NCBI GenBank assembly: GCA_030613505.1
Contig: JAUWLW010000034.1
Span: 1-30,971, forward strand
Reading direction: 5' to 3'
Origin: Candidatus Zixiibacteriota bacterium
Lineage (GTDB): Bacteria > RBG-13-66-14 > B26-G2 > WVWN01
DNA length: 30,971 nt
Shown: one piece after another, positions 1,119 to 21,585 of the stretch
How positions within the stretch are numbered: position 1 is the stretch's first letter
Layout: each line of letters begins with the position of its first letter
The notes under the pieces: model-generated
What the model was told of the DNA's origin: nothing
Seen by the model: only the letters and a program-made list of their open reading frames with translations
Databases searched by the model: none
Position numbers and translations under genes: made by a program

Positions 1119-1174
1119 CTCGCGGGCGGGGCACGCGCGCCGTCGGGGCGCGGCTAGAAGGAATTATTCAATTG

Positions 1175-1205: not shown

Positions 1206-1417
1206 ATTGTCTTTAAGGTTACTAAATTTTTAGGCGACCGCGCCGCGAAAAAGGCGTTGGACTTTACCGAGTTTAACGAGTATCATATGTATCCGTTAAG
1301 CGGGGCCGGCCTCGGGGCGGCTTCGCCTTTGATTTAATCCGACGTAGGTTCGAGCCTGTTCCCGCTACACATATTGTATAGTGTAAACGGTTTGGCGAGC
1401 TTTACACGGTGAGTACG
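1206..1417. other. Intergenic region before the DUF5916 gene
   Basis: No gene is seen. A -10-like TATAGT is at 1377-1382 without a good -35. GGTGAG at 1408-1413 is a plausible ribosome binding site for ATG 1418. A short tRNA-T-arm-like string lies near 1348-1366 but does not fold as a tRNA. Confidence 0.4.
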
Positions 1418-3815: not shown

Positions 3816-3869
3816 TTGACGGGCGTTGAACGGTGTCGTTATCCATTCCCGAGGAGCGTGACGCTATGA
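3816..3869 (+). CDS. Possible 17-residue leader peptide coupled to the 9-heme cytochrome gene
   Basis: TTG 3816 lies 6 nt after a near-ideal AGGAGG (3804-3809) and opens 17 codons that end in TGA at 3867-3869. That stop overlaps the ATG 3866 of the next gene as ATGA. The start/stop overlap and the strength of the ribosome binding site suggest translational coupling. Codon content alone cannot prove translation. Confidence 0.3.
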   Translation: MTGVERCRYPFPRSVTL

Positions 3870-5071
3870 AGAGGTTTTGGCTTCCCGCGTTATTTTTAGC
3901 GGCGGTAGGTGCATTAACGCTAAACTGTGGCGAGACTACGACGGGCCCCGGCGAGGCAGAGGGGTACTATTTAGGCGCAGAGGCGTGCAAACAGTGCCAC
4001 TCTACCGCGTATAAAAACGAATCCCATACCAGACACTTCAACACCTTCGTCGACGACCCCAAGGAAGAACACGATTTCGTCTCCACGTGGCGCGGTGCCG
4101 GTAAGCCGGACTCGTGTTTGCTCTGCCATACGACGGGGTGGAATACGTCCAAGGCCAACCACGGCGCCGACGAGGTGGAGTACCGGAAAAACCTGCTCGG
4201 CATCCAATGCGAGAGCTGCCACGGCCCGGGTTCGGAGCACGTCAAGGGCGGCGGCGACCCGAGCAAGATTACGATGGACTACAGCGCCGAGCTGTGCGGT
4301 AGTTGCCACACGGGCGGCCATCATCCCACCTACGACGAATGGGAAGAGTCGGACCACGCGAAGGCCCTCGTCTCCCTGAAGGGTAGCTCACACGCTTCAG
4401 ACCATTGCCTCGAGTGCCATTCCGCCGACTACTGGTACGACCGCACGGTTACGTTGACTACGGCGAAGGAAGGCATCACGTGCGTGATGTGCCACTTCGC
4501 CCACGGCTCCAACTTCGAGCATCAGCTTCGCGAAGAGGGCGAGAAGCTCTGCGGCCTCTGCCACACCGCCGAAGGGTCCCAGCCCCCGAGTTCGCCCCAC
4601 CACCCGCAGGACGAGATGTTGTTGGGCATCGGCGGTTACGAATGGCCCCAGGGCGGCCCCTACCGAAACACGGCGCACACCTACGAGATCGAAGAGCGGT
4701 GCATGAAATGCCACATGTACACCAAGGGGTACGAGTCGGAGGAAAACCCGGCCATAACCGGCCACTCTTGGAAGCCCAATGTCGAAGTCTGCCGGGAATG
4801 CCATAAAGGCGCGAAGAACTTCAACATACACGGCGCCCAGACCAAGATCGGGAACCTGCTCACCGAGCTCGAGACCAAACTCGATACACAGAAGAACTTG
4901 GAAGCCCCGGATTACATTAACGCCAAGTTCAATCACGGCTTCGTCGGAGCCGACGCCAGCGAGGGCGTCCACAATTACGACTACGCCAGGCAACTGCTCG
5001 AAGACTCGATTGAATTTTACACGCCGAGCGGCGACAACGTTTGGCCCTTCGCGGTAGCGAAAAAGCGCTAA
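3866..5071 (+). CDS. Nine-heme cytochrome c, putative outer-membrane lipoprotein
   Basis: About 401 residues with nine CXXCH motifs (CKQCH, CLLCH, CESCH, CGSCH, CLECH, CVMCH, CGLCH, CMKCH, CRECH) spread over residues of about 40-315, in the arrangement of cytochrome c554-like proteins. The signal sequence MKRFWLPALFLAAVGA ends in LTLNC followed by GETTTGPGE, a lipobox-like Cys with an unusual Asn at -1. If lipidated, the protein would be membrane-tethered and could be surface-exposed. The C-terminal helical tail carries GVHNYDYA, a Gly-x-His-Asn motif shared with other cytochromes here. ATG 3866 has GAGGAG at 3851-3856; the in-frame GTG 3833 lacks a site. It is first of three genes with a barrel and a 7-heme cytochrome, hence a likely external or intermembrane electron carrier. 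Confidence 0.85.
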   Translation: MKRFWLPALFLAAVGALTLNCGETTTGPGEAEGYYLGAEACKQCHSTAYKNESHTRHFNTFVDDPKEEHDFVSTWRGAGKPDSCLLCHTTGWNTSKANHGADEVEYRKNLLGIQCESCHGPGSEHVKGGGDPSKITMDYSAELCGSCHTGGHHPTYDEWEESDHAKALVSLKGSSHASDHCLECHSADYWYDRTVTLTTAKEGITCVMCHFAHGSNFEHQLREEGEKLCGLCHTAEGSQPPSSPHHPQDEMLLGIGGYEWPQGGPYRNTAHTYEIEERCMKCHMYTKGYESEENPAITGHSWKPNVEVCRECHKGAKNFNIHGAQTKIGNLLTELETKLDTQKNLEAPDYINAKFNHGFVGADASEGVHNYDYARQLLEDSIEFYTPSGDNVWPFAVAKKR

Positions 5072-5121
5072 ACGCGGCCGCGGGCCCATAGCTAACGCGA
5101 CACATAAACGGAGGTAGATAT

Positions 5122-6474
5122 ATGTTCGCGAAGCGGATTGGCGTTGCGGTGTGGGCCGCGACGGCGGCGTTAATCGTGACGGTACCTTTAACGGCCGACG
5201 CCGTTCGTTATAACGGGTATCTCGGCACGACCGTTTACGGCTACAGCACGGTGGAGGACCCGGCCGAGACCATCGCCGATACGTACGTTCCGCTGCGGTT
5301 TCGCGTCGACCAGGATACCGGGGGCGGGAACATCGGCATCGTCGCCTCCACCCGTTTGTATAAGGCGGTGAATACGACGAACCCCGATGAGGGTGACGTC
5401 AACGGTCGCGTGTACTACGGTTACTTTCGTTGGCGGCCGCCGGTTAAGGGACTCGAGTTTAACTTGGGGCGGCAGTACGTCGCCGCCGGCGTTACCGCGG
5501 CTACACTGGACGGCGCCCGCGCCGTCTTTAAACGAGGGAAGAAGTGGCGCGCCGACGTGTACGGCGGCTCGACGGTGGCGCCCGACTATGGGCCGATGCG
5601 TCGGTTCTCGCAGCTGGGCTATAAGGACAAGGCCAACGCGCCCTTCGACCGTGGGCACTGGCTCGACTACTACACCTACGGCGCACACGGCGGAACGAAC
5701 GTCAAGGAACTTTGGTCGGGGATGGTCTTCCCGGTGTGGGTGGGCGTCGGCGGCGCCATATCGAAAAAGGACGGCCACCACAGCGACACCACGTTGGGCC
5801 TCGAGGCGGTCGAGGATATACGGTCCGACTTGAAGGCCAGCCAGGAGATACACTACGACTTTATAGGCCGCCATGTGGACTACCAGTACTACTCGGCGCG
5901 GTATCGGCCGTGGAAGCCGCTCCGCACGTACGTGGACTACCGCTGGCAGGAGCCGCGGGTCGACTACACGTCGATATTCTCGGTTTTCGCGCGCGAAGCG
6001 CGGCATCGTTGGCGCGTCGGTGGCCAATACGAGCTTACCAAGACGCTCGAACCTTTCCTCGACTATTCCATGGCCATACGCGGTGACCACCTGAGCCACC
6101 TCGCCCAGGCCGGCCTCGTACAAAATTACGGGTACGTATACTTGCGTTACGGCGGCCTTTACGGCGTGGGTAACAGGGTCGAATCCGGCGGTGAGGAGAT
6201 CGGGGGCTTCGCCGCGGCTGAATTCCCCAAACCAATCCCTACCTTCGAGCGGTTGAGCGCCGGAATCTCGGGTAATTATATTAGGTACAAGGGATACGGT
6301 ACGCCCGCGCCGACGTGGGAGGACGCGCCGGACGTGTCGCTTATCGACGTACACGGCCGCCTGAAGGTCTGGCGTACGTTAGAGACGACGCTGGGCATGG
6401 AAGCCCTTAGGAACCTCGACCGGGATTACGAAATCCGCGCTTACCTCCAGGCGAGCGTGTCAATTTCCCGCTAA
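5122..6474 (+). CDS. Outer-membrane beta-barrel protein, candidate porin of a porin-cytochrome conduit
   Basis: 450 residues with a signal peptide (cleavage expected after ADA near residue 27) followed by repeated amphipathic strands rich in Tyr, Trp, Arg and Gly (for example RVYYGYFRWRPP, VDYQYYSARYRPW, GYVYLRYGGLYGVG). It ends in AYLQASVSISR. There are no heme motifs. I do not recognise a named family. Its size and its place between two secreted multiheme cytochromes match the architecture of barrels in Geobacter-type porin-cytochrome complexes, so that role is inferred from context. GGAGGT at 5111-5116 precedes ATG 5122. It is spaced 50 bp from the cytochrome upstream and 38 bp from the one downstream, without a visible terminator. 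Confidence 0.75.
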   Translation: MFAKRIGVAVWAATAALIVTVPLTADAVRYNGYLGTTVYGYSTVEDPAETIADTYVPLRFRVDQDTGGGNIGIVASTRLYKAVNTTNPDEGDVNGRVYYGYFRWRPPVKGLEFNLGRQYVAAGVTAATLDGARAVFKRGKKWRADVYGGSTVAPDYGPMRRFSQLGYKDKANAPFDRGHWLDYYTYGAHGGTNVKELWSGMVFPVWVGVGGAISKKDGHHSDTTLGLEAVEDIRSDLKASQEIHYDFIGRHVDYQYYSARYRPWKPLRTYVDYRWQEPRVDYTSIFSVFAREARHRWRVGGQYELTKTLEPFLDYSMAIRGDHLSHLAQAGLVQNYGYVYLRYGGLYGVGNRVESGGEEIGGFAAAEFPKPIPTFERLSAGISGNYIRYKGYGTPAPTWEDAPDVSLIDVHGRLKVWRTLETTLGMEALRNLDRDYEIRAYLQASVSISR

Positions 6475-6512
6475 CGGCGAGTTTTAAAGACGCATAATCA
6501 GGGAGACGCGGT

Positions 6513-7157
6513 ATGTTGCGATTGAGTCGTAAATTTCGGATTATGCCGGTTTTCATCTTCGCGATTGTGGGCCTCGGCGTAACACTCGTCGCCGTTACGT
6601 CGGTTATACCGGCGCACGAGGCCGCTGCGGCCGGTAAGCCTAAACCGGCGACGCACGACCAGGCCTGGGCCGATGAGCACGCGACTTTCGCCAAGGGCAA
6701 CGTCCAAAGCTGCTATCTATGCCACGAGCAATCCTACTGCGACGCCTGCCACGCCTCCGACGACCCCACAGAGGCCTACCACAAGACGAACTACGTGTAT
6801 ACCCACTATCTGGATAAATTCATCGAGGACACCGAGTGCGCGAGTTGCCACGATAATCAGGAATTTTGCGTTACCTGCCACGAGGACAGTAAAGCGGAGG
6901 CGGGGAGGCCCGCGAGCCATTCCCAGCCCGGGTGGAGTACCGTAGGGCACGCCGATGTTGTCGCGTACGAGCTCGACGCCTGCGCCGCGTGCCACGATCC
7001 GATAGGAGCCGAGCCCGTATGTATGCGGTGTCACCGCAGCGGCATAAGCCCCCACGGCGATAACCCGGTTATCGACGTGGAAAACGGTCCGTGGCAGACC
7101 GATAAGGGTTACGTGTGCTTCCAATGCCATAGCACGGCCGACCCCCGGTTAAAATAA
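6513..7157 (+). CDS. Seven-heme periplasmic cytochrome c
   Basis: 214 residues: a signal sequence (hydrophobic about 12-35, ending AHEAAAAG) and seven CXXCH motifs (CYLCH, CDACH, CASCH, CVTCH, CAACH, CMRCH, CFQCH). The paired pattern CYLCHEQSYCDACH and CASCHDNQEFCVTCHE, with two hemes eight to nine residues apart, indicates closely stacked hemes. Extra histidines (HDQ, YHKTNY, THY, SHS, GHAD) can act as distal ligands. ATG 6513 has GGGAGA at 6501-6506. As last gene of the unit before a strong terminator, it is the likely periplasmic partner of the barrel. It could instead be a free periplasmic shuttle. Confidence 0.85.
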   Translation: MLRLSRKFRIMPVFIFAIVGLGVTLVAVTSVIPAHEAAAAGKPKPATHDQAWADEHATFAKGNVQSCYLCHEQSYCDACHASDDPTEAYHKTNYVYTHYLDKFIEDTECASCHDNQEFCVTCHEDSKAEAGRPASHSQPGWSTVGHADVVAYELDACAACHDPIGAEPVCMRCHRSGISPHGDNPVIDVENGPWQTDKGYVCFQCHSTADPRLK

Positions 7158-7219
7158 CGAGCGACCGCGCGGAGTATTTCGGAAAGCGAGACTTATATCC
7201 CCTCGAGTTGAAGCTAAGC

Positions 7220-7258
7220 CGCGCCGCTCTTTACTCGTTGAGCGGCGCGTCTTTTTTT
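7220..7258 (+). terminator. Strong Rho-independent terminator
   Basis: CGCGCCGCTC (7220-7229) pairs perfectly with GAGCGGCGCG (7240-7249) around a 10-nt loop, followed by TC and seven T (7252-7258). It closes the three-gene cytochrome/barrel unit. Confidence 0.88.
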
Positions 7259-7266
7259 ATTATAAT
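7238..7266 (+). promoter_or_regulatory. Sigma-70-like promoter overlapping the terminator
   Basis: TTGAGC (7238-7243), a 17-bp spacer and a perfect TATAAT (7261-7266). The -35 lies in the 3' arm of the terminator hairpin and the U-tract forms the spacer. A start near 7273 would give a leader of about 23 nt before ATG 7296, including AAGGAGG at 7286-7292. Confidence 0.7.
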
Positions 7267-7295
7267 CTTGGCAAAAGTGGCAACGAAGGAGGCTT

Positions 7296-7727
7296 ATGGT
7301 TAACCGAACCGTTTGGGTAGCAATCGCGGCAGCTATTATCATAGTACCCTTGGTCGGGTCTTCGGAGAATGCGGGCGACTACGTTGGCCTCGAAACGTGC
7401 GCTGCCTGCCACGCCGACGTCGCCGCCTCGTACGGCGAGACGGCGCACGCGAACGCGCTGGAGGTTTTGGAGGCCGCCGGATCGGATGGCGACCCGGAAT
7501 GCTTGAGTTGCCACGCTACGGGTCTCGAGGATTCGAAGTTCGTCGACGGCGCCGTCACGTGCGAGGCCTGCCACGGCCCGGGCGGCGAGCACGTCGCCAC
7601 CGGCGATAAGGCGGCGATAAATAAAGAGATAGGCGAGGCGGATTGCCTGAAGTGCCATACCGCCGACTGGTCGCCGGATTTCGATTACGAATCTTATAAG
7701 GCGAAGGGCCTCCACGGTTCGGAATAA
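7296..7727 (+). CDS. Four-heme cytochrome c554-like periplasmic protein
   Basis: 143 residues. A signal peptide (MVNRTVWVAIAAAIIIVPLVG) is followed by a cytochrome c554-type opening (YVGLETCAACHADVAASYGETAHA) and four CXXCH motifs: CAACH, CLSCH, CEACH, CLKCH. The CEACHGPGGEH element is the same type as CESCHGPGSEH in the 9-heme protein at 3866, so the two share a common module and may exchange electrons or have arisen by duplication. The gene has its own promoter (7238-7266) and an excellent ribosome binding site. A hairpin follows at 7757. Likely role: small soluble periplasmic electron shuttle. The redox partner is unknown. Confidence 0.85.
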   Translation: MVNRTVWVAIAAAIIIVPLVGSSENAGDYVGLETCAACHADVAASYGETAHANALEVLEAAGSDGDPECLSCHATGLEDSKFVDGAVTCEACHGPGGEHVATGDKAAINKEIGEADCLKCHTADWSPDFDYESYKAKGLHGSE

Positions 7728-7756
7728 GCCCCTCGCCGCGGTATTTAGTTAATCGC

Positions 7757-7790
7757 GAATGAAGCCGAGCTTTGGACGGCGGCTTTATTC
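7757..7790 (+). terminator. Hairpin, possible terminator or attenuator before the Rieske gene
   Basis: GAATGAAGCCG (7757-7767) pairs with CGGCTTTATTC (7780-7790) through one G-U wobble around a 12-nt loop. The U-rich part lies inside the stem, not after it. No good promoter is seen between it and ATG 7817, so partial read-through into the Rieske operon is possible. Confidence 0.45.
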
Positions 7791-7816
7791 GGCGGTTAAT
7801 TATGATGTAATTACTC

Positions 7817-8323
7817 ATGTACGAAACAGAAGCGGAACGGGACACCGGCGGCACCGCCGCCGGCGAGGAGGCTTCGGACCGGGATAGCGGCGAACGTCCG
7901 GTTGAGCGGCGGTCGTTTCTGAACGCTTTACTCTTCGGTGCGGTCTCGTTGTTAACGATGTACGGAGCGTACGCGGTAGGGCGGTACCTCTGGCCGCCGC
8001 GGGGCGAAACCGCCGGCGGCGAATTAGGGCAAGTGGAAGCCGGTACCGAAGACGAGTTTCCGGTGGGTGCCGGGAAGAAAGTGCTGTACCGGGGAGAACC
8101 GGTGTGGGTGATCCACGCGCCGTTCGGTTTCGTCGCTCTCTCGGCGGTGTGCACCCACCTCGGCTGTATCGTGGAATATGACCCCCAAAAGGAGATTTGG
8201 TGCCCGTGCCACGCGGCCTTCTTCGACCTGCGGGGCAACGTTAAGTCCGGTCCGGCGCCCAGCCCGCTGCCGTCATACCCGGTAGGTATAGTCGGCGGCA
8301 AGGTCGTCGTGGGGGAACTGTAA
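7817..8323 (+). CDS. Rieske [2Fe-2S] protein of a bc/b6f-type complex
   Basis: 168 residues. A hydrophilic N-terminal tail leads to a twin-arginine signal/anchor (ERRSFLNALLFGAVSLLTMYG, Arg pair near residues 32-33), so folding in the cytoplasm and Tat export are expected. The cluster-binding motifs are CTHLGC and CPCHAAFF, with the downstream GPAPSPLP loop typical of Rieske proteins. It transfers an electron from quinol bound at the Qo site of cytochrome b to a periplasmic c-type partner. No clear ribosome binding site precedes ATG 7817, and an in-frame stop just upstream (7808-7810) leaves no alternative. The stop overlaps the ATG of the cytochrome b gene (TAATG at 8321-8325). Confidence 0.93.
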   Translation: MYETEAERDTGGTAAGEEASDRDSGERPVERRSFLNALLFGAVSLLTMYGAYAVGRYLWPPRGETAGGELGQVEAGTEDEFPVGAGKKVLYRGEPVWVIHAPFGFVALSAVCTHLGCIVEYDPQKEIWCPCHAAFFDLRGNVKSGPAPSPLPSYPVGIVGGKVVVGEL

Positions 8324-9069
8324 TGGCGGAAGGGCGGAAGAGCTTCGCGGACCGCGCGGTCGAGTGGATCGCGAATAACGTAAATCTGCGGGCGCTCGTA
8401 AATTTATTCGGGACGTTTACGGGGTTCTTGTACGGTGAACTGGACGAGCGTCTCGAGCTGGGGGAGGCCGTTAAAAAACAGTTGCGTAAGCCGATATCGG
8501 GCCGGGTCAGCCGCTGGTGGGGATGTTTCGGCGGCATTACGTTCCTTTTATTCATGATCCAGGTTGTCACCGGCGTCCTGTTGGCGATTTATTACCGTCC
8601 CACGGTCGACGGTGCGCACGATAGCATCCTCTTTATTATGAACGACGTCCGGTACGGGTGGTTGATCCGGAGCGTGCACCGGTACGCGGCGGAACTGATG
8701 GTTCTTACGGTTATGATCCACATGGTGAAGATTTTCCTCAGCGGCGCGTATAAACCCCCGCGCGAACTGACTTGGGTCTCGGGCGTTCTCCTCTTGTTGC
8801 TGACGTTGACTTTCGGTTTTACCGGCTACTTACTACCCTGGGATCAACGGGCGTATTGGGCTACGACTGTCGGCACGGAGATGGCCCACTCGGTCCCGCT
8901 GGTCGGGGAATATCTCTCGACCGCGCTCAAGGGAGGAGGCGTAATCGGCCAACGGACGCTTAGCCGCTTCTACGCCCTACACGTAATTATACTTCCGTGG
9001 GTGCTGACCTTTTTTCTGATGTCGCATCTCTTAATGATCCGGCGGCAGGGCGCCTACGAGCCGCAGTAG
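8323..9069 (+). CDS. Cytochrome b6-type N-terminal cytochrome b subunit
   Basis: 248 residues with four transmembrane helices after an N-terminal amphipathic segment. Heme ligands come in two pairs: His-x13-His in helix B (RSVHRYAAELMVLTVMIH) and His-x14-His in helix D (HVIILPWVLTFFLMSH). The 14-residue spacing is that of b6f and firmicute-type cytochromes b, while mitochondrial-type bc1 has 13. TGYLLPWDQRAYWAT is the conserved Qo-side region. The protein lacks the C-terminal helices, which are encoded by the next gene, so cytochrome b is split as in b6f. It should oxidise menaquinol and bifurcate electrons to the Rieske protein and the b hemes. Confidence 0.94.
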   Translation: MAEGRKSFADRAVEWIANNVNLRALVNLFGTFTGFLYGELDERLELGEAVKKQLRKPISGRVSRWWGCFGGITFLLFMIQVVTGVLLAIYYRPTVDGAHDSILFIMNDVRYGWLIRSVHRYAAELMVLTVMIHMVKIFLSGAYKPPRELTWVSGVLLLLLTLTFGFTGYLLPWDQRAYWATTVGTEMAHSVPLVGEYLSTALKGGGVIGQRTLSRFYALHVIILPWVLTFFLMSHLLMIRRQGAYEPQ

Positions 9070-9082
9070 CGGGGGTCGTTCC

Positions 9083-9463
9083 ATGGCGCGCAAAGACCAT
9101 CCCTTCTTTCCCCATCATGCCCTCGAGCAGGCTTTACAGTTTTTCATACTCGTAGCTGTCCTGTTAGCCTTAACGCTGTGGCGGCCGGCCGGCCTGGCGG
9201 ATAAGGCCGACCCGTTAAATACGCCCGAGCACGTAAAACCCGAATGGTATTTCCTGGCGGAGTACCAAATGCTAAAAGTGGTCCCCCGGACGGTGGGGAT
9301 CGTAGGTATGGGTTTGGTTGCAGCGTTAATCCTCGTATTCCCTTTCTTGTTAGACCGCGACAAGGCTAAATACCGGCCGCTGCAAAGGCCGCTCTTCTTT
9401 TTCAGCGGTATTATTTTCGTCGTCTCGTACGTAATACTTACCGTATGGGGCCATTACTCGTGA
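9083..9463 (+). CDS. Cytochrome b C-terminal subunit (subunit IV-like)
   Basis: 126 residues with three predicted membrane helices (LEQALQFFILVAVLLALTL, GIVGMGLVAALILVFPFLL, PLFFFSGIIFVVSYVILTVW). It carries the Qo-site PEWY motif within HVKPEWYFLAEYQML, the hallmark of subunit IV/the C-terminal part of cytochrome b. It starts 13 bp after the b6-type gene and completes the split cytochrome b. The length is somewhat short of chloroplast subunit IV (about 160 residues) but within the range of bacterial split forms. Confidence 0.92.
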   Translation: MARKDHPFFPHHALEQALQFFILVAVLLALTLWRPAGLADKADPLNTPEHVKPEWYFLAEYQMLKVVPRTVGIVGMGLVAALILVFPFLLDRDKAKYRPLQRPLFFFSGIIFVVSYVILTVWGHYS

Positions 9464-9511
9464 CCGCGGCGCGTAGCGGCCGCTTACCTAAGGGGTAAGG
9501 CGTTCAATCCC

Positions 9512-10729
9512 GTGAAATTGGGCACGTACTTACGCTGGAGTCTTGCGGTCTTGGCGGCGGCTGTCGCCGCGTCGGCCGCGAGGCCTACAGAAGCCTGCGT
9601 CGATTGCCACGACGGCTGGCCCGAGCTCAAGCAGTGGAAAGAGAGCTCCCACGCCGCCGCGGGCGTGGGTTGCGCCGACTGCCACGGTGGCGACGCGAAC
9701 GCCGTTTCGATGGACGCGGTCCGCCGGGCGGCCGGCTACGTAGGTAAATTCCCGCGCGAGGCCGTCCCGCGAATGTGCGCGCGGTGTCACAGCGACCCCG
9801 CGGCGATGAAACAGTACGACCTCCCTTTCAATCAGTACGACGAGTACGTGACCAGCGTCCACGGCCGGCGTCTCGCCGCCGGGGACCGCAACGTGGCCGT
9901 GTGTACCGATTGCCACGGTGCGCACCTGGTATTACCCGGGGGCGACGGCCGCTCGTCGGTTAATAAGATAAACGTGCCGGCGACCTGCCGCAGGTGCCAC
10001 GGCGACGAGGCTTTGATGGCCCGGTACGGCCTACCCGCCGGTACTTATGAGAAATATGCCCAAAGCGTCCACGGTCGGATGCTTCTGGAACAACAGATAA
10101 CGGGCGTACCGAGCTGTGCCGACTGCCACGGTAACCACGGCGCTGCGCCGCCGGGGGTTAGCGAAGCCGTCAACGTTTGCGGCCACTGCCACGTAAATCA
10201 GCGGCAATATTATAGTGAGAGCCCTCACGCCCCGGCGGGGCAGGTACGGGAGGGGTGCGTTACCTGCCACGGCAATCATTTAATCGCGAAGCCGGACGAC
10301 GAGTTGTATACCGGTACGCGCCGGGGCGCTTGCGGCTCGTGCCACGAACGCGACTCGAGCGCTTATAGGGACGCCCTGCGCATTGCCGATTCCTTCGCCG
10401 GCGCCAAAAGGGCGGTGGAGGAGGCGCGAGGCCGGCTCGAGGTGGCGCGCGCGCGGGCGATTTCAGTCGGACGGTGGGAGCAACGGTTGGACGAGGCCGA
10501 GGCGAAGATCACGGAGGCCTACCCGGTAGCGCACTCCCTCTCGCTGGCCAAAATAAACGACCTCAACCGCGAGGCCGTGGTGGGCGCCCACGACGTCGAG
10601 GGCGAGATAGCCCAGGCATTCCGGGAGCGCAAGCACAGGAAAGAGATACTGGCTTTTTTATTGGGTCTCATTTTATTAATTTTGCTGCTGCTCGGACTCA
10701 AGTGGCGCCGACTTTTCAAGAACCTTTAA
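9512..10729 (+). CDS. Nine-heme membrane-anchored cytochrome c
   Basis: 405 residues: signal peptide, nine CXXCH motifs (CVDCH, CADCH, CARCH, CTDCH, CRRCH, CADCH, CGHCH, CVTCH, CGSCH) within about residues 29-277, a charged helical/coiled-coil segment (about 280-375) containing VVGAHDVEGEI, and a C-terminal transmembrane helix (EILAFLLGLILLILLLLGL) with a short basic cytoplasmic tail. Repeated YxxSVHG segments precede heme pairs. The gene starts with GTG 9512 after AAGGGGTAAGG-like purines at 9490-9500. Its position directly after cytochrome b makes it the likely electron acceptor replacing cytochrome c1/f. That is inference from context; no biochemical analogue is certain. Confidence 0.87.
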   Translation: MKLGTYLRWSLAVLAAAVAASAARPTEACVDCHDGWPELKQWKESSHAAAGVGCADCHGGDANAVSMDAVRRAAGYVGKFPREAVPRMCARCHSDPAAMKQYDLPFNQYDEYVTSVHGRRLAAGDRNVAVCTDCHGAHLVLPGGDGRSSVNKINVPATCRRCHGDEALMARYGLPAGTYEKYAQSVHGRMLLEQQITGVPSCADCHGNHGAAPPGVSEAVNVCGHCHVNQRQYYSESPHAPAGQVREGCVTCHGNHLIAKPDDELYTGTRRGACGSCHERDSSAYRDALRIADSFAGAKRAVEEARGRLEVARARAISVGRWEQRLDEAEAKITEAYPVAHSLSLAKINDLNREAVVGAHDVEGEIAQAFRERKHRKEILAFLLGLILLILLLLGLKWRRLFKNL

Positions 10730-10789
10730 CACTTCCCTCGATAACTTACGCGCGAAGCGGCGCTGGTTTCACCCGGGCGCCGTCTGGTC

Positions 10790-13000
10790 ATGGCGAGTTT
10801 ACTACTTGACTTCTGGCAATTTCTAAAACAACACCGCAAGGCGTTGAGGAGGGCGGCGCTGGCGGTTGCCGTCCTCGTCGTCGTTGTCGCGGCGATTTTC
10901 GTACGCATTTCGGAGTCGCCGCGTTTTTGCTACGCCTGCCACATAATGCGGCCTTATTACCGCGCGTGGGAGGAATCGTCGCATAAAGAAGTTAATTGTC
11001 TCGAATGCCACTACCCCCCCACAATCGGCGGCCACGTAAAAAGTAAGTTCGTTGCGATTTCACAGATCGTGCAGTATTTCACGGGTTCGTACGGGACGAG
11101 GTTCTGGGCGGAGATTGACGACGACGCTTGTTTGCGCGAGGGCTGCCACGATACCCGGCTTCTCTCCGGTGCGGTAACCTTCAAAGAGGATATCGCTTTC
11201 GACCACGCCTTTCACCTGGGCGAAATGCGCCGCGGCAAGAGGCTCCGCTGCACCTCCTGTCACTCCCAAATGGTCATCGGGACCCACATCGAGGTCACGG
11301 AGTCGGTGTGCTTTACATGCCATTTCAAGGACGCCGTTCTGGGGAAAGGCACCGCCGATTGCTTGATATGTCACGGCCCGCCGGGAAAGTCGGTCACGTA
11401 TAAGGGCGTGACGTTTGACCACGCCGCTTACCTTGAGCGCGACGTGCCCTGTGCCAAGTGCCATATGCACGTCGTCGAAGGTGACGGCCGCGTCCCGGAG
11501 ACGAGGTGCTACAGTTGCCACGGCGACAGATCCAATATGGTATCCGACCCGGTATTGCTCCACCGGACCCACGTGACGGACCACAAGGTCGAATGTTTCG
11601 AGTGTCATCTCGAGATCCGGCACGGCGCTTTGGAGCTGTCGCCGCTCCTGGCGCCGGAGTGTTCCACCTGCCACGGCGACCGGCATTCGGTCCAGGAGGG
11701 TGTTTATATCGGTACCGGCGGCCTCGACACGCCGAGCGTGGCGAGCGCGATGTTCGACGGCCAAGTGTCGTGCTCCGGCTGCCACACCGCCTCCGGCCAC
11801 GCCGGGACCGCCGGGTTCCCTCGGGCCACCCGGGGGTCTTGTGTTTCCTGTCACGGCGTCGCTTTCGGCCAGGTGTATGATAGTTGGACAACTGAAACCA
11901 AGAAGTCGTACGAAAAGGCGAAGGCGATGGTAGCTGCGGCGAAAGCCACCGTGTACGCCACCGGTTCCTCCGACCCGGCGCGCGCCCACGCGCGGACGCT
12001 TATCGCGCAGGCCGAGAAGAACCTCGAGCTCGTAGCGGAGGACGGAAGCTACGGTGCGCACAACGTGATCTACGCCAACGCGTTGATAGAAACCGCGGTG
12101 ACGAAAGCGGCCGGCGCCGCGAAGGCGGCGGGGCGCAAAATCCATTACGCGCCGGCGACTTTCCGCGTACCGGCCGAAGAAGATACCTGCGCCTGGCGGT
12201 GCCACTTCGGCATCGAACGCCGGGTAATCGCCGTCGGCGGTAAAAGTTTCGACCACGGCGGTCACCTATCCCGGGGCGGCATCGAATGCGCCTCCTGTCA
12301 CGACCTCGAGCGGCACGGCCTAACGCTCCCGACCGCGTACAATTGTTCCGCCTGCCATCACGCGCGCGGCGACGTCGACTGCTCGAGTTGCCACGGCGAC
12401 GTCTCTCGCCTTTCCGTAACCTACCGCGACCGGGAGTTTGACCACGGCGTACACTCAGCGCGGTCGGGGTTGGGGTGTAACGGGTGTCACCCGGCTGACA
12501 GTCCCTCGGTAGTCCGGGCCGACTGTTCTAGTTGCCACCACAAAGACGAGGCGAAAAACTGCGCCTCGTGCCACGCGACGCAGGCTAAAATGTTGGCGGG
12601 GTTCGGCGCGGCCCGTGGGAGGGGGAAACCCTCGCCGATGGCGACGTTGGGATGCAAGGCCTGCCACAGCCAGCCGCCGGTACGCCCCGACGCCGGTGCT
12701 TGCACGAAATGCCATCCTGCCGGGTACGCCAATATATTTAAAGCGTGGGGGAAGACCTCCCAGGAGAATTACCGCAAGCTCAGTATTAAAATCGAGGAAG
12801 CCCGACGCCATAGGACCGCGCTCGCCGGCGTCGCCGTCGACGGCCGCAACGGCGCCGAAATCTATAGGCGGGCCGAGGCGGACCTTAAATGGGCGGGGGC
12901 CGACGGTTCGTGGGGCACGCATAACAACGCGTACGTCAACGAGATACTCAAGAAAGATGCCGACGAGCTCGAGCAGGTTTTAACGGAAATGGGGGATTAA
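10790..13000 (+). CDS. NapC/NirT-headed giant multiheme cytochrome c (19 CXXCH plus 2 atypical sites)
   Basis: 736 residues. One N-terminal transmembrane anchor (about 20-42) precedes the NapC/NirT-like quinol-oxidising head: FCYACHIMRPYYRAWEESSH, CLECH, then CLREGCH, a CX4CH site. A long periplasmic part follows with repeated heme pairs and FDHxxHL motifs of the cytochrome c7/c3 type. In total there are 19 CXXCH motifs, one CX4CH and one CX3CH (CAWRCH near residue 465). Two related helical modules occur, ending in DGSYGAHNVIYA and DGSWGTHNNAYV, so the protein is probably a tandem duplication of a heme-rich unit. It is likely an inner-membrane quinol-to-periplasm electron wire. No strong ribosome binding site is seen at ATG 10790; the gene is 60 bp from its neighbour. 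Confidence 0.87.
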   Translation: MASLLLDFWQFLKQHRKALRRAALAVAVLVVVVAAIFVRISESPRFCYACHIMRPYYRAWEESSHKEVNCLECHYPPTIGGHVKSKFVAISQIVQYFTGSYGTRFWAEIDDDACLREGCHDTRLLSGAVTFKEDIAFDHAFHLGEMRRGKRLRCTSCHSQMVIGTHIEVTESVCFTCHFKDAVLGKGTADCLICHGPPGKSVTYKGVTFDHAAYLERDVPCAKCHMHVVEGDGRVPETRCYSCHGDRSNMVSDPVLLHRTHVTDHKVECFECHLEIRHGALELSPLLAPECSTCHGDRHSVQEGVYIGTGGLDTPSVASAMFDGQVSCSGCHTASGHAGTAGFPRATRGSCVSCHGVAFGQVYDSWTTETKKSYEKAKAMVAAAKATVYATGSSDPARAHARTLIAQAEKNLELVAEDGSYGAHNVIYANALIETAVTKAAGAAKAAGRKIHYAPATFRVPAEEDTCAWRCHFGIERRVIAVGGKSFDHGGHLSRGGIECASCHDLERHGLTLPTAYNCSACHHARGDVDCSSCHGDVSRLSVTYRDREFDHGVHSARSGLGCNGCHPADSPSVVRADCSSCHHKDEAKNCASCHATQAKMLAGFGAARGRGKPSPMATLGCKACHSQPPVRPDAGACTKCHPAGYANIFKAWGKTSQENYRKLSIKIEEARRHRTALAGVAVDGRNGAEIYRRAEADLKWAGADGSWGTHNNAYVNEILKKDADELEQVLTEMGD

Positions 13001-13052
13001 GGTGGCGGGGGCTTGCGGGCCCGGTACCCGTGCCGCGGTTGAAATCGGGACG

Positions 13053-13081
13053 TTGACGCCAGCGTTTTTAAATGGTATAAT
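13053..13081 (+). promoter_or_regulatory. Strong extended -10 sigma-70-like promoter
   Basis: TTGACG (13053-13058), a 17-bp spacer and TATAAT (13076-13081) preceded by TGG (extended -10). A second TATAAT at 13106-13111 lacks a -35. It drives the CbcL-like/ResB/CcsA unit with a leader of about 65 nt. Confidence 0.78.
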
Positions 13082-13151
13082 TTATAGATAATTATATTAG
13101 TAATGTATAATACGCCGACGGCGTGACTTCAGTTATTTTCCTACGTTAAGA

Positions 13152-15221
13152 ATGCTGAGTTCCTCGACCGTAAGGATAGCATTGGCGGTCGCGGCTATCG
13201 CCGCGGCGGCGAACGGCGCCGACCTGAGCAAGTGCGATATGTGCCACAAGCCGGCCGGCAAGCCGGCGCCGGCTATTCCGGGCGGCCTGTACGCCTCGCC
13301 CCACGCGGGCGTTAGCTGTTTGACCTGCCACACGGGCGCCTCGCAGCCGCACAAAGGCGGCGTGGCTGCGCGCGGGTGCACCTCGTGCCACGGTGAAGCC
13401 GGGAGAGAGCTGACGGCGAGCGCCCACGGCGCGGGCGTCGAAGGCGCGCCCACTTGCTATACGTGCCACGGCGCCGGCCACCGCGTAACCTCTCTCGCCG
13501 CGGAGCATTTGCAGCCGACGTACGGGCCCCGGATCTGCGCCCGGTGCCACGCCAAGGAGACCGAGGTTTATCTGAAGAGCGCGCACGCCCGGGCCGCGGC
13601 GGCGGGCAACGGCCTTGCGCCGACGTGCGACCTCTGCCACGGCGACGCACACGCGACTGAGCCGGTCGCAACCGACCACCAGCTGTCGGCCGCGCACCAG
13701 CCGGCGTTTTGCGGGGGTTGCCACCGCGGCAAGAAAGCGGCGCCGGACTCGCCTTTCTCGATTCCGGACCCGCGGGCGGCCCTCCTATCGAGCGTACACG
13801 GCGAAATTAACCCGGAGGCCGGGACCTATAACGCCAACTGCGCGGATTGTCACTACTTGCACGACGAGCAGCCGGCCTGGCATTACGCCTCCTCTACCCA
13901 CTTTATGAACGTCGCCCAAACCTGCGGCGTGTGCCACGAGCGCGAGTACGAGCTTTATGCCTCCAGCGTCCACGGCATGGCGGTGGCCGCCGGAGTGCGC
14001 GACGCGCCGACGTGCCCCGACTGCCACGGCGACCACGGCGTCGTCGCCGTCGCCGAATACGAAGGCGAGGGGCGCGGGACGCGGGTCGTCGCGACGTGCT
14101 CGAGCTGCCACTACTCGCTGGCCCTCAGCGCCAAGTTCAACCTCCCCAACGACCGCGTCGAGACGTTCGAACGGAGCTACCACGGCGTCGTCTCGGAGGG
14201 GGGCAAGACGACGGCCGCCGACTGCGGCAGCTGCCACCGCGTTCACGACGTCCTGCCCGCCTCCAATCCCCGGTCCAGCGTCTACGCGGCCAACCTGGAA
14301 GCGACGTGCGGCGCTTGCCATATACGCGTCACGGAGAGGTTCGTCGGTACGAACGTCCACGACCCGGCGGAGCACGCGCGGCGGTCCCCGTCGGACTACG
14401 TGGCTTTGGCGTACATTATTTTGATCGTCGTAATCCTAGGCGGCATGGTAGCGCACAACACGGTAGATTACGTCGTTAAAGTACGGGCCATCAAACGGGC
14501 CCGGCACGAGCCGCGCAAGGTGCACGAGCGCCTTAGGGTATCGGAGCGTATCCAACACCTCGTGCTGATTATGAGCTTCGCGGCTCTCGCTTTCACCGGC
14601 TTCGCCATTAAGTTCCCCTCCGCATTCCTTTTCTCGTGGTTGGTGCGGTTGGAGGGCCCGTATTCCGTGCGCGTCACGGCACACAAAGTCTTCGCCGTAA
14701 TCTTGATCGCCGCCTCTATTTTCCACATAAGCTATTTGCTGTTTACGCGACAAGGCCGCGCGCGCCTCCGGTCGATCTGGCCTCGCGCGGGAGACTTCCG
14801 CCAGGCGGTACGGACGACCTTACACGCCTTCGGCTTTGTCAAGAGCAAACCCGAGTTCGGCGAGTTCAATTACGCCGAGAAGGCTGAATACTGGGCTTTG
14901 ATTTGGGGTATCGCCATAATGGCCTTAACCGGTTTGTTCGTGTGGCTCGATCCGTACATCCAACAGTTTTTCCCGTATTGGCTCTACGAAGTCTTACGGA
15001 CGATACATTTTTACGAGGCGATCCTTGCGGTATCGTCGATCGTCATATGGCATTTCTATCACGTCATCTTTGACCCCTCCGTGTATCCGATGAATTTCGC
15101 TTGGCTCGACGGGAAGATACCGGAAAAGTTAATAGTCGAAGAAAGAAAGCGGTATTTGAGAGAGCTAAGGCGTTCCAAGAGCGAAGTGGAGCCTGAAACC
15201 AAGGATGAGGCGGAGGATTAA
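13152..15221 (+). CDS. CbcL-like fusion: 13-heme cytochrome c plus membrane cytochrome b
   Basis: 689 residues. A signal peptide is followed by a periplasmic region (about 27-400) with thirteen CXXCH motifs (CDMCH first, CGACH last), several preceded by SxHG/SAH segments. The C-terminal third (about 415-650) has five membrane helices with histidines in suitable places (VAHN, IQHL, TAHK, FHISY, TIHFYEA, WHFYHVI), matching the diheme cytochrome b of the HydC/FdnI type. The same fusion plan is found in Geobacter CbcL, a menaquinol dehydrogenase for low-potential extracellular electron transfer, which has nine c hemes. The role is thus probably menaquinol oxidation with transfer to periplasmic cytochromes, by homology of architecture. 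The C-terminus is a charged cytoplasmic tail. Confidence 0.88.
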   Translation: MLSSSTVRIALAVAAIAAAANGADLSKCDMCHKPAGKPAPAIPGGLYASPHAGVSCLTCHTGASQPHKGGVAARGCTSCHGEAGRELTASAHGAGVEGAPTCYTCHGAGHRVTSLAAEHLQPTYGPRICARCHAKETEVYLKSAHARAAAAGNGLAPTCDLCHGDAHATEPVATDHQLSAAHQPAFCGGCHRGKKAAPDSPFSIPDPRAALLSSVHGEINPEAGTYNANCADCHYLHDEQPAWHYASSTHFMNVAQTCGVCHEREYELYASSVHGMAVAAGVRDAPTCPDCHGDHGVVAVAEYEGEGRGTRVVATCSSCHYSLALSAKFNLPNDRVETFERSYHGVVSEGGKTTAADCGSCHRVHDVLPASNPRSSVYAANLEATCGACHIRVTERFVGTNVHDPAEHARRSPSDYVALAYIILIVVILGGMVAHNTVDYVVKVRAIKRARHEPRKVHERLRVSERIQHLVLIMSFAALAFTGFAIKFPSAFLFSWLVRLEGPYSVRVTAHKVFAVILIAASIFHISYLLFTRQGRARLRSIWPRAGDFRQAVRTTLHAFGFVKSKPEFGEFNYAEKAEYWALIWGIAIMALTGLFVWLDPYIQQFFPYWLYEVLRTIHFYEAILAVSSIVIWHFYHVIFDPSVYPMNFAWLDGKIPEKLIVEERKRYLRELRRSKSEVEPETKDEAED

Positions 15222-15281
15222 ACCGGCGCGAGCGCGGGTACGCCGCCAGCTCAGAGTAGATTCTGTAAAGGTTGTCTGTAT

Positions 15282-16898
15282 ATGAAAAAAGCTCTCGATC
15301 TCCTTTCCTCCCGGCGGATTTCGATCTACTTGTTTTTAGTGCTCCTTTTCGTTTCGCTGCTGGGTGCGCTTATCCCCCAGAACGAGCTCCCCGCCTATTA
15401 CGAGGCGCACTACCGTAGCTGGGCCGTCGGCCTCCTCAAGACCTTCCAGTTAACGGACGTGTACCAAGCGTGGTACTTCTTCCTGATATTGGTATATCTC
15501 GTCGCGAGTTTGGTAACGTGCACGGCGCGGCGGTTGCCCCGGGCGTTGGCGCCCCTTGCGCGGCGCGCGAAGCTGCCCGCGTCGCTCGATGATTTGAGTC
15601 TACGCGCCGAGTTGGGCCCCGCGGCCGACCCGGAGCGTCTCGAGCGCTCGGCCCGGCGGCTGGGCTTCCGGTGGCGGCGCGAAGGCGACGTGTTGTACGG
15701 TAGGCGGCGGCCTTACGCGCCGTGGGGCGAGATATTGACCCACGTCGGCCTGGTCGTGATCTTCGTGGCCGCGTTCTTCCGGTTGTTCGGCCACCGCGAA
15801 ACGTTGTTCGTCTTCGAAGGCCAGGGTATAGCGTTGCCGCGGGAGTACGGAACCGCTTACGAACTCCGCGCCGACAAGGTGGAAGAGGTCCGCGACGCCG
15901 ACACCGGCCGCGTATTGGAGTACCGGACCGCGGTGCGTTTGCTGCGCGGCGGCGAGGAGGTGGCGGCGAAGGAGGTAGAGGTCAACGGGCCGCTCCGCTA
16001 CGCCGGCCTGGGCGTATATCAGTCGAACATGGATGTCGCCGGCGCGAGCGGCCTGGCCGTCGACGCCGTTAAGCTGGCGCCCGGGGAGAGCATGGCCGAC
16101 GCCGCGGCCGCGACCTTTGAATGGACGTTGAGAGAGGAGAAAGGCACCGTTGCGCTCGCGCCCGGGCAAACGGCGCCGTTGGCCGATACCGGATTTCAGC
16201 TCCGCTTCCTCGAGCGCTACGACCATTTTGTCACCGACGAGTCGGGCTTCCGTAACGATAATCCCGAGTACAACCCGGCGGCGTTCGTGAACGTCTTCGA
16301 CCCTTCGGGCGCGGCGGCGATGGGGATAATCTTCGAGCTATACCCGGAGTTTTCGGTCATCAAATCGTCGGAGGAGGCGTTTACCAACCTTCCGCTTACG
16401 ATAAAACTCGAGCCAACCTCGGGAGAGTTGGCGGGCGAGCGGCGCGAGTACGTCGCCGTGCCGGAGGCGGTGTTCGTCGTGGGCGCGGGGGAGCGGATGT
16501 CGGTCGCGTTCGCGGCCGAAGGGCCGGCTCACCGCGGTGCGGCGTTGACGGCGCGGCTCGCGCGACCGGACGGCGGTAAAGAGACATTTGCGCTACCTTT
16601 GGGCGAGTGGGTTACGGTGGCGTTGGTCGACGGCGAGTACGCGTTCCGGTTCAACGGGGCTCGGCGGGCCGCGCTTACGGGCCTAACGGTATCGCGAGAC
16701 CCGGGCTTGACGGTTTTTTACGTGGGATGTTTGTTGCTTTCCCTGGGCGTCGTGGCCGCCACGCTGTTAAGTTACGACGAACTATTCCTTTACGTCCGCG
16801 ACGGTACGGCGTACCTGGCGGGTCGCTCGAGCAAGGGGCCGCAGCTTCTTAGGCCGGCTTTCGAACGCTGGGCGGCGAAGATAAAAGAGGAGCTTTAA
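15282..16898 (+). CDS. resB: ResB/Ccs1 cytochrome c biogenesis protein
   Basis: 538 residues. It opens with LDLLSSRRISIYLFLVLLFVSLLGALIPQ, the typical first helix of ResB, then WYFFLILVYLVASLVTCTARRL and a third helix (EILTHVGLVVIFVAAFFRLFG). A large periplasmic domain (about 170-470) and a fourth helix (VFYVGCLLLSLGVVAATLLSY) follow. With CcsA it forms the system II heme lyase that exports heme and attaches it to CXXCH apocytochromes. It follows the CbcL-like gene by 60 bp and is 4 bp from ccsA. Placement beside the cytochromes supplies the maturation capacity they need. Confidence 0.92.
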   Translation: MKKALDLLSSRRISIYLFLVLLFVSLLGALIPQNELPAYYEAHYRSWAVGLLKTFQLTDVYQAWYFFLILVYLVASLVTCTARRLPRALAPLARRAKLPASLDDLSLRAELGPAADPERLERSARRLGFRWRREGDVLYGRRRPYAPWGEILTHVGLVVIFVAAFFRLFGHRETLFVFEGQGIALPREYGTAYELRADKVEEVRDADTGRVLEYRTAVRLLRGGEEVAAKEVEVNGPLRYAGLGVYQSNMDVAGASGLAVDAVKLAPGESMADAAAATFEWTLREEKGTVALAPGQTAPLADTGFQLRFLERYDHFVTDESGFRNDNPEYNPAAFVNVFDPSGAAAMGIIFELYPEFSVIKSSEEAFTNLPLTIKLEPTSGELAGERREYVAVPEAVFVVGAGERMSVAFAAEGPAHRGAALTARLARPDGGKETFALPLGEWVTVALVDGEYAFRFNGARRAALTGLTVSRDPGLTVFYVGCLLLSLGVVAATLLSYDELFLYVRDGTAYLAGRSSKGPQLLRPAFERWAAKIKEEL

Positions 16899-16902
16899 CG
16901 AT

Positions 16903-18399
16903 ATGTCGACGCGAAGGGTTTCGATTACGGTTTTCTTAACGGCCGCCGTCGTCGCGTCCGCCGCGGCCGCTGAGCCCGATTTCGGTGTGCGGGTGGCGCT
17001 GGTTGAGGAGGCGCGGTTGGGCAAAGCCTTCGCGGCTGTGGCGGTTAAAGCGGAACGGCCGATGCCGTGGCCCGCGTTCGCTAACCTGCGCTACCGCGAG
17101 CTCAAGGGCGGCGGGAAAGTGCGCGACGGCGAATTGGCGCCCGGCCGCGACGCGGTGGTATGGCTCGCCGTGCTGGACGACGAGTACCGAACGACGGCCC
17201 GCTTAATCTTCGTCGAGGGCGGCAAGGTCCCGGGCGTTCCCGCGGACCGGTGGATATCTCTCGGCGAATACGAGGACGAGGTAATGCCGGCGTTGATGCG
17301 GGCGCCGGGCGCGTTGGAGGACGAGAAGGTAAAAGAGGAGGCGAGTAAGTTGGTCGCCCGGGCGACGGCGCTGCAAGAGCTCTCGTGGCGCGAGCTGCGA
17401 TTGATACCCGGGCCCGCGGAGGAGGGGTGGAAGACGCTCGGGCCCGAGCGCCCGGGCTGGGAGCACGCGGTTGCGTTGAATCAGGCGTACGGGGACGGCG
17501 ACGCGGCGGCGATGCACGAGGCGGCGGCGCGGCTGGCGCGGGAATTAACGGCACAGGCCGGCTACCCGCCGGCGGCGAAACTAAAACTCGAGGTATATTT
17601 GCAGAAATTCGGCGTGTTGAAGATCGGCTTTTTCTTGTATTTATTGTCGTCGCTTTCGTTCTTCGTGTGGGCGGCGTTGGGTAGGAAGTGGCTTGCGAAC
17701 GCCGGCGCCTGGGTGGCCTTCGCCGGCTTCGTCTTTATAACGGCGGGCCTCGTGGGGCGCTCGGTAGTGGCCGGATATCTACCGACGACGGGGATGTACG
17801 AGTACCTGGCGTTGTTTTCGTGGGCGTCGGTGCTCATCTTCCTTTTGTTCTACCTCAAGACGCGGCAAGCTTTCCTGGGCACGATCGTTATGCCGGTCGC
17901 GTTCCTGCTTATAGTGTTATCCTCCCTTTTCCCCTCTAAGATCGAAGGGCAGCTCATCCCGGCGCTCCAGTCGTGGTGGCTGACGATTCACGTGACGCTG
18001 GCGTGCCTGGGCGAGGGGGCGTTCGCGGTGGGGTTTGCCGCGGCGGTGTTGTACCTCTTCCGCGGCGACAAGCCGAGCAGGTATTTACCATCCAAAGAAG
18101 CGCTCGACGTCCTGGAGTACCGCGCGATAGCAATAGGCTTCCCGCTGTTCACCATCGGCGCGCTGGTGGCGGGCGCCATATGGGCGCAGAAGGCGTGGTC
18201 GGTGTGGTGGAGCTGGGACCCGAAGGAGACGGCCTCGCTCGTCGTCTTCCTTATCGCCGTGGCGTACCTGCACGCCCGCCGCCTGGCCGGATGGCGCGGC
18301 AGGCGGACGGCTATTCTGGCGGCGCTTATCTTCGTGGCGTCGGTGTTGACGCTCTTCGCGAACCTCATCTTCGGCGGCCTGCACTCGTACGGGGTCTGA
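16903..18399 (+). CDS. ccsA: CcsA/ResC heme lyase with long N-terminal periplasmic extension
   Basis: 498 residues. The C-terminal part (about 238-498) has eight membrane helices and the tryptophan-rich heme-handling signature WWSWDPKE near residues 434-441, plus conserved flanking histidines (TIHVTLACLGEGAFAVGFA and GGLHSYGV). This is the CcsA/CcmC/CcmF superfamily. Unusually, about 235 residues precede the first helix: a signal peptide (MSTRRVSITVFLTAAVVASAAAAE) and a charged alpha/beta-like segment with no recognisable motif. Typical CcsA proteins are near 250-350 residues. The extension is in one open frame, so it is a real part of the gene unless misassembled. It works with ResB in system II cytochrome c maturation. 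Confidence 0.9.
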   Translation: MSTRRVSITVFLTAAVVASAAAAEPDFGVRVALVEEARLGKAFAAVAVKAERPMPWPAFANLRYRELKGGGKVRDGELAPGRDAVVWLAVLDDEYRTTARLIFVEGGKVPGVPADRWISLGEYEDEVMPALMRAPGALEDEKVKEEASKLVARATALQELSWRELRLIPGPAEEGWKTLGPERPGWEHAVALNQAYGDGDAAAMHEAAARLARELTAQAGYPPAAKLKLEVYLQKFGVLKIGFFLYLLSSLSFFVWAALGRKWLANAGAWVAFAGFVFITAGLVGRSVVAGYLPTTGMYEYLALFSWASVLIFLLFYLKTRQAFLGTIVMPVAFLLIVLSSLFPSKIEGQLIPALQSWWLTIHVTLACLGEGAFAVGFAAAVLYLFRGDKPSRYLPSKEALDVLEYRAIAIGFPLFTIGALVAGAIWAQKAWSVWWSWDPKETASLVVFLIAVAYLHARRLAGWRGRRTAILAALIFVASVLTLFANLIFGGLHSYGV

Positions 18400-20710: not shown

Positions 20711-21226
20711 TTAGCCGCCTTCCGATCGCGCGCTAAGGTCTTTCAAGGCTTCGACGAAGCGGCCGAAGAGTTCTGTTACGGGTTCTTTTAACCGAAGCTC
20801 GCGCTCGAGGCGTTCGCGAACGGCGCCGGCGTCGCCCCTGTTATCCGGCGCCACGTCGCCGTCGAGCGTTTTAAGACTATTCTCTATGGTCCGGAATACG
20901 GCCCGGACGCCCTGGTCCGCTATCTTGTCGAACGAGTCGGCATATAGCTCCGCAATCTTGAAGTCGGCTTCGTAGAAATCCTTTCGTTCCCCTTTCACCC
21001 ATACCTTGCGGACTAAGCCGTAGTTCTCCAAAATGTGGACGTTTACGCTCACGCCCGATTTGGCTACGCCTAGCCGCTCGCACAACTCGTCCAAGCTAAC
21101 GGGACGCGGCGTAAACATCAGATAGGCCAAGATGCGTCGCGGCAGGCCGGCCGCGGCTATCGGGGCCGCAATCCGTTCTACCGACTTTATGAAGTCGTCT
21201 CTAGTCCGCTCGTACGCGTCCGCCAT
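20711..21226 (-). CDS. GbsR/MarR-type transcriptional regulator
   Basis: 171 residues. A winged helix-turn-helix spans about residues 30-95 (GLPRRILAYLMFTPRPVSLDELCERLGVAKSGVSVNVHILENYGLVRKVWVKGERKDFYEAD), the pattern of the GbsR subfamily of MarR regulators. It is followed by helical dimerisation segments. ATG 21226 has GGAGG with suitable spacing on the minus strand (near 21236). It lies downstream of the Cu/Ag efflux genes on the same strand but has its own consensus promoter at 21503-21531, so it need not be part of that operon. GbsR-type proteins elsewhere respond to choline or control transporters; the ligand here is unknown. Confidence 0.82.
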   Translation of the reverse strand: MADAYERTRDDFIKSVERIAAPIAAAGLPRRILAYLMFTPRPVSLDELCERLGVAKSGVSVNVHILENYGLVRKVWVKGERKDFYEADFKIAELYADSFDKIADQGVRAVFRTIENSLKTLDGDVAPDNRGDAGAVRERLERELRLKEPVTELFGRFVEALKDLSARSEGG

Positions 21227-21562: not shown

Positions 21563-21585
21563 CTAAACGGCGTAAAGTGCTGGAT

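Follow-up and report, generated by a model that had tools for sequence, protein, structure and literature searches.

A multiheme operon proposed to link quinol oxidation to a candidate outer-membrane conduit in a Candidatus Zixiibacteriota bacterium

Main

The coupling of extracellular respiration to inner-membrane energy conservation is an open question, and in the Geobacter ext cluster the role of the Rieske/cytochrome b complex has been left uncharacterised (PMC5877670). We analysed a stretch of 30,971 bases (the window) from contig JAUWLW010000034.1 of a Candidatus Zixiibacteriota bacterium (genome G000, 2.86 Mb, 93% complete). Twelve genes, A to L, all on the forward strand, occupy about 14.5 kb at positions 3866-18399 with intergenic gaps of -1 to 151 bp (Table 1). 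We put at roughly 0.7 the probability that this operon encodes an extracellular electron transfer (EET) chain that carries electrons from the quinone pool out to the cell surface. Established directly were the genes present and their motifs, their conservation and co-location, and the loss of E to I as a block in a congener.

Six open reading frames hold 61 CXXCH motifs (A 9, C 7, D 4, H 9, I 19 and J 13), while none was found in the remaining annotated proteins of the window (5,665 residues scanned). An original prediction made from the DNA alone had reached the identical tally, plus one CX4CH and one CX3CH motif, both of which lie in I. The Rieske/split cytochrome b complex, CbcL-like fusion, NapC-type head and ResB/CcsA pair that it named were likewise borne out by Pfam and NCBIfam profiles, with matches to the Rieske, cytochrome b6, subunit IV and NapC N-terminal (PF03264) models and, in D, to PF13435.

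For topology, electron order, direction, acceptor and the division of labour between two inlets, we infer the following route. Two alternative inner-membrane enzymes would oxidise quinol. One would be a b6-type Rieske/cytochrome b complex that translocates protons (E-F-G-H), in which H would stand in for cytochrome f and I would serve as an anchored periplasmic wire; the other would be J, a CbcL-like fusion of cytochrome b with a 13-heme domain that is expected to work without a Q cycle. Electrons would then pass through D and/or I to C, placed in or under barrel B, and leave the cell through lipoprotein A at its surface, with a mineral, humic matter or a partner cell as the extracellular acceptor. 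K and L would attach the roughly 63 c-type hemes. A compact operon joining a Q-cycle enzyme to a conduit, repeated in several unrelated families, would make the coupling question testable.

Table 1 Genes of the operon, with proposed roles
Gene	Position	Strand	Description
A	3866..5071	+	c554/DmsE-like cytochrome with 9 hemes; probably a lipoprotein, proposed to end the conduit at the cell surface
B	5122..6474	+	Outer-membrane beta-barrel candidate, 450 aa, signal peptide
C	6513..7157	+	7-heme periplasmic cytochrome, proposed barrel plug
D	7296..7727	+	4-heme c554-type periplasmic cytochrome (PF13435), candidate shuttle
E	7817..8323	+	Rieske iron-sulfur protein (PF00355); RRSF twin-Arg signal; CTHLGC/CPCH ligands
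F	8323..9069	+	Cytochrome b6-type subunit (PF00033); H-X13-H and H-X14-H
G	9083..9463	+	Subunit IV (PF00032), Qo motif PEWY
H	9512..10729	+	9-heme cytochrome, signal peptide, one C-terminal transmembrane anchor; proposed cytochrome f replacement
I	10790..13000	+	NapC-type transmembrane head, 19 CXXCH, one CX4CH, one CX3CH; proposed membrane-anchored periplasmic wire
J	13152..15221	+	CbcL-like fusion of a 13-heme domain to an FdnI/b561-type cytochrome b; proposed second quinol inlet
K	15282..16898	+	ResB/Ccs1, system II cytochrome c maturation (PF05140)
L	16903..18399	+	CcsA heme lyase (PF01578); WSVWWSWD motif, long N-terminal extension

Conservation and recurrence of the gene sets

Orthologues of B were found in only the four nearest of 97 other genomes (82, 77, 70 and 36% identity), and the synteny of the locus holds within the genus and in the sister family. 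G003 carries A to K in the same order, and G002 and G004 carry the same genes on scaffolds with 100-N joins, which interrupt B and I in G002 and separate E from F in G004. Because they sit at these joins, the seeming division of the G004 locus and the remote position of J in G002 are not evidence of change, and both were dropped as true rearrangements. A comparison of gene order over genomes, as had been proposed, thus showed the order recurring in the genus and sister family, and the modules recurring outside the phylum.

A six-row barrel profile, run against 386 genomes, detected B homologues in 51, of which 46 lie outside the clade; the weakest matches may be ordinary porins. Two of the profile rows (G170 and G055) had first been recognised by position and weak scores (6.8e-12 and 2.9e-6, respectively, against 22 sequences) and, since they were chosen partly by position, their own matches in this search arise by construction. 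We inspected 14 remote barrel loci, namely the strongest ones plus two picked for a nearby cytochrome b. Multiheme genes adjoined the B homologue in 12 of these, the other two being cut by a contig end, and a C-like gene was next to it in 11, L158 being the exception among the 12. A homologues adjoin the barrel gene in G001, G003, G004, G055, G332 and G200, while C homologues carry 8 hemes in two congeners and 8-14 in remote genomes. Judged by these neighbourhoods, A-B-C is a member of a family of barrel-cytochrome clusters spread over many unrelated families.

The identity of B itself is a more cautious matter, as the outer-membrane barrel of the original prediction found no meaningful Pfam or NCBIfam match and its fold is unconfirmed. 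We retain B as a barrel candidate because it has a signal peptide and a strand-rich sequence, and because its homologues hold a constant place beside multiheme genes.

Conduit genes lie within 20 kb of Rieske/cytochrome b genes in G055, G170, G068, G087 and G228. Among the matches listed, barrel and cytochrome b are co-located in 5 of the 21 genomes holding both, compared with 0.47 expected by random placement. G055 and G200 also hold I homologues, and G357 links a conduit to two J homologues. Because of this co-location and the I and J homologues shared by several families outside the phylum, the gene data indicate that the pairing of conduit and Rieske/cytochrome b set is a recurrent combination, not a local accident. 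The combination, which the original prediction did not recognise, is not unique: sets much like it are present in no fewer than four families outside the phylum.

Domains of the c554 type occur in both A and D, and in G170 a D-like gene adjoins E-F-G-H. A further multiheme spot of the host genome (L044; G000:C56:89751-97331) encodes two proteins about 6 kb apart, one of 440 aa with a 4-heme domain like that of D and one of 452 aa with 8 hemes.

Two candidate quinol inlets

The hallmarks of a b6f-type complex are all present in E-F-G: the histidine pairs, a cysteine (Cys68 of F) that aligns with the heme-cN cysteine of b6, the PEWY motif and the Rieske ligands. F also matched the structure 2zt9_A (E 5e-65). 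No cytochrome f or c1 subunit was found in the locus; in its place stands H, which has nine hemes and the same topology as those subunits. A nine-heme H homologue adjoins cytochrome b, as part of an E-F-G-H set, in 15 loci from nine families outside the phylum. On the cytochrome b tree, the label 'nine-heme H' needs 3 changes, compared with 13 when labels are shuffled, and a single origin of the pairing between E-F-G-H and a nine-heme H is a possibility compatible with this tree.

In J, the C-terminal part matched PF01292 (42 bits) and 1kqf_C (E 5e-9). Histidines H435, H469, H511, H619 and H634 are invariant in nine homologues, and H525 is kept in eight of the nine. J shares the main traits of the CbcL/MtrH/MtoC family, with an N-terminal run of CX2CH motifs within the range of 3-23, an FdnI/HydC-like C-terminus and three conserved transmembrane histidines, although hydropathy gives five transmembrane helices in the C-terminal part plus a signal peptide, compared with six in that family. 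Homologues of J were found in G055, G170, G200 and G357, those of G055 and G170 being 34% identical over about 617 residues.

The original prediction counted I as a third inlet. Its head matched PF03264 (38 bits; cut-off 24) and the NrfH structure 2j7a_C, and it has the CXXCHxM first heme (CYACHIM) and transmembrane segment (residues 22-40) of the NapC/NrfH type. Lys82 and Asp89 are quinol-site residues of NrfH; the equivalent of Lys82 is kept in I, while the Asp89 position is isoleucine or valine in an alignment that ends at residue 87 and whose last two positions were extended by hand. Further along, the CX4CH motif (CLREGCH) does not vary among nine homologues, some from the clade and others from the remote genomes G055, G332 and G200, and is very likely a genuine heme site. 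Given this invariance, and with the CX3CH motif (CAWRCH), I probably carries about 21 hemes.

A natural deletion bears on the number of inlets. In G001, A-B-C-D-J are consecutive on one gap-free contig, and neither the cytochrome b nor H was found anywhere in the genome. At the D-J junction (L008:6721-6876), a 51-codon open reading frame matches the N-terminal ~50 residues of I with an alignment score of 82, compared with 54 for the best of 1,000 shuffles. On the strength of this scar, we read G001 as having lost E to H and most of I secondarily and together, with the conduit genes and J retained. This block loss suggests that E to I form one unit and that J alone may be able to serve the conduit; half of an experiment has, in effect, been done by nature, with the Rieske/cytochrome b unit gone and the remainder kept. 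Together with the apparent replacement of Asp89, it makes I more likely an anchored wire of the Rieske/cytochrome b unit than a separate inlet. We thus dropped three independent inlets in favour of two (E-F-G-H with I as accessory, and J), which appears to be the better reading. Of the three menaquinol-oxidising designs originally predicted, the Rieske/cytochrome b complex and J are kept as proposed inlets; the head of I is the weaker candidate, and the specification of menaquinol is, as described below, unsupported.

Homologues of I in G332, G055 and G200 have a different architecture, in which a receiver domain (PF00072, E 4e-15 to 2e-18) is fused before a NapC-type 11-heme cytochrome. These genes lie directly upstream of E-F-G-H (L099:11139-12929, L110:11200-13014 and L111:11183-13006, respectively), and the receiver domain could possibly be a cytoplasmic signal input on a membrane cytochrome.

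The presence of ResB and CcsA at the locus agrees with the prediction that it has its own heme lyase, but in the congener G003 no CcsA gene follows ResB. In that genome (L007:3660-7360), the sulfatase and MarR genes are likewise not found after ResB, and the CusA/CusB genes are still nearby.

Comparison with named systems

Every part of the locus resembles a known system. The nearest named operon is extHIJKLMNOPQS of Geobacter sulfurreducens, which shares a porin-like barrel, a Rieske protein, the b6-like ExtP, the subunit-IV-like ExtQ, multiheme cytochromes and a lipoprotein cytochrome (PMC5877670). Its heme counts (12, 10, 5 and 4) differ from those of the locus, which adds the CbcL-like J, the NapC-type head of I and ResB/CcsA. 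Membership of the Ext family was rejected, as F and G fall under the ExtP and ExtQ cut-offs (246.3 bits versus 290 and 26.4 versus 150, respectively), and A reached just 19.6 bits against the ExtKL model (cut-off 250). MtrCAB membership was similarly rejected: A and H scored 66 and 62 bits to TIGR03508 (cut-off 192), D scored 15 to TIGR03507 (cut-off 209) and B was unmatched.

Porin-cytochrome (Pcc) clusters also pair a barrel gene with a periplasmic multiheme cytochrome, and usually with a multiheme cytochrome of the outer membrane as well (PMC4245776). The B-C-A set and the multiheme partners in the remote loci have this gene arrangement, with a barrel fold that is unconfirmed, and the 12-14 hemes of the Kuenenia and Anaeromyxobacter Pcc cytochromes compare with 8-14 in remote C homologues. 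A Rieske/cytochrome b complex, which the locus has, is not described for Pcc clusters (the word is absent from PMC4245776). J resembles CbcL/MtrH/MtoC in its N-terminal CX2CH run, FdnI-like C-terminal cytochrome b and conserved transmembrane histidines (PMC6295460), but has 13 hemes rather than the nine of Geobacter CbcL and adjoins a Rieske/cytochrome b complex. The Kuenenia complexes Kuste4569-4574 and Kustd1480-1485 likewise have a b6-type cytochrome b and subunit IV, with cytochrome f replaced by a cytochrome of six or eight hemes (PMC12954380). The locus differs in having the nine-heme H and a linked barrel conduit and in lacking both an NAD(P) oxidoreductase and an HAO-like subunit. By description only, OetABI of syntrophic sulfate reducers is alike in its periplasmic cytochrome, barrel and extracellular cytochrome lipoprotein (PMC10553843), and a Deferribacter region (PMC6896113), whose nine cytochrome genes include ones for 28 and for 10 hemes, may be a further relative.

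In the titles and abstracts retrieved from the open-licence PubMed Central (PMC) literature, we found no named operon pairing a Rieske/cytochrome b complex with a conduit. No literature on EET in Coatesbacteria was found in open-licence PMC. More tentatively, the locus might represent an unnamed, recurrent EET supermodule in which conduits with barrels of ~400-470 residues (B-C-A) are tied genetically to a proton-translocating Rieske/cytochrome b complex with a nine-heme cytochrome for cytochrome f and to a CbcL-like bypass. Such an operon would combine high- and low-yield outward routes; within the clade it could be the main or only respiratory outlet, fed by a quinone made outside the recognised menaquinone routes.

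Electron direction, acceptor and alternative readings

In five clade genomes (78-97% complete), no match was found to heme-copper oxidase (PF00115), bd oxidase (PF01654) or molybdopterin oxidoreductase (PF00384), while most named control genomes match one of these families. Since three large classes of terminal enzyme are undetected in the clade, outward flow is the likeliest direction, electron export the likeliest use of the locus, and the locus itself a likely key to the clade's respiration. Taken with the recurrence of A-B-C as a barrel-cytochrome cluster, this makes the predicted EET module well supported, and the original prediction as a whole partly so.

Several observations pull the other way. 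All twelve members are known here from genes alone. The lipobox of A (LTLNC-G) is non-canonical, with Asn at -1 (several A homologues have a canonical one), and an AlphaFold model of B built from three sequences gave a pLDDT of 26 and no usable fold. The co-location count is drawn from the matches listed, and G087 and G228 belong to one family, so that the five genomes represent four families. The oxidase and molybdopterin result leaves out NrfA-type and other non-molybdenum reductases, which were not searched genome-wide. Neither the futalosine route (MqnA/MqnD, PF02621) nor the classical route (MenD, TIGR00173) to menaquinone was detected above cut-off in G000-G004, three of which have weak MenD-like matches, and 'menaquinol' is for this reason unsupported. 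Finally, in Geobacter, loss of extI impairs reduction of selenite and tellurite but not of Fe(III) citrate (PMC5877670).

This last point would suit an Ext-like reduction of selenite or tellurite oxyanions, in which the barrel would let in or hold the substrate for reduction by the cytochromes, with no general conduit to minerals or electrodes. The nearest named operon and the weak matches of F and G to the ExtP and ExtQ models speak for this reading; we consider it unlikely, as both scores are sub-threshold, the rhodanese ExtH and selenoprotein ExtKL are not among the 12 genes, B has no NCBIfam match and no counterpart of J is described in ext.

It is also improbable that the conduit, the Rieske/cytochrome b complex and the CbcL-like enzyme share an operon while serving different acceptors. 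The modules do occur apart: many conduits have no nearby Rieske/cytochrome b genes, and the stretches inspected in G037, G184 and G322 contain E-F-G-H but showed no conduit. Against such adjacency without coupling stand the excess of co-location among the matches listed and the contiguous run B-C-A'-E-F-H in G087 and G228.

We give similarly little credence to inward flow, in which A-B-C would take up electrons from a partner cell, Fe(II) or a cathode and J would pass them on to the quinone pool. CbcL/MtrH/MtoC homologues occur in Fe(III) reducers and Fe(II) oxidisers alike (PMC6295460), but the five clade genomes show no heme-copper or bd oxidase or molybdopterin reductase as an electron sink, and a Rieske/cytochrome b complex normally oxidises quinol. 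Respiration confined to the periplasm, with the cytochromes feeding a soluble reductase and B an unrelated solute porin, is very improbable: the unconfirmed fold of B and the c554-type domains of A and D would allow it, but no NrfA CX2CK site or other reductase was found in the locus, and B homologues keep their multiheme partners, chiefly C-like ones, over many families.

Neighbouring genes

Directly downstream, on the reverse strand (20711-27790), lie a MarR-like regulator and a CusA/CusB/CusC-type RND metal efflux operon; Cus genes are likewise near the locus in G003. Upstream, positions 546-3520 encode an ECF-type sigma factor and a CBM9/DUF5916 protein, both of which are also found upstream in G001, and the sigma factor in G003. 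An open frame at 28363-30971 leaves the window and, judged by reading only, has apparent serine/threonine kinase, ATPase and repeat regions.

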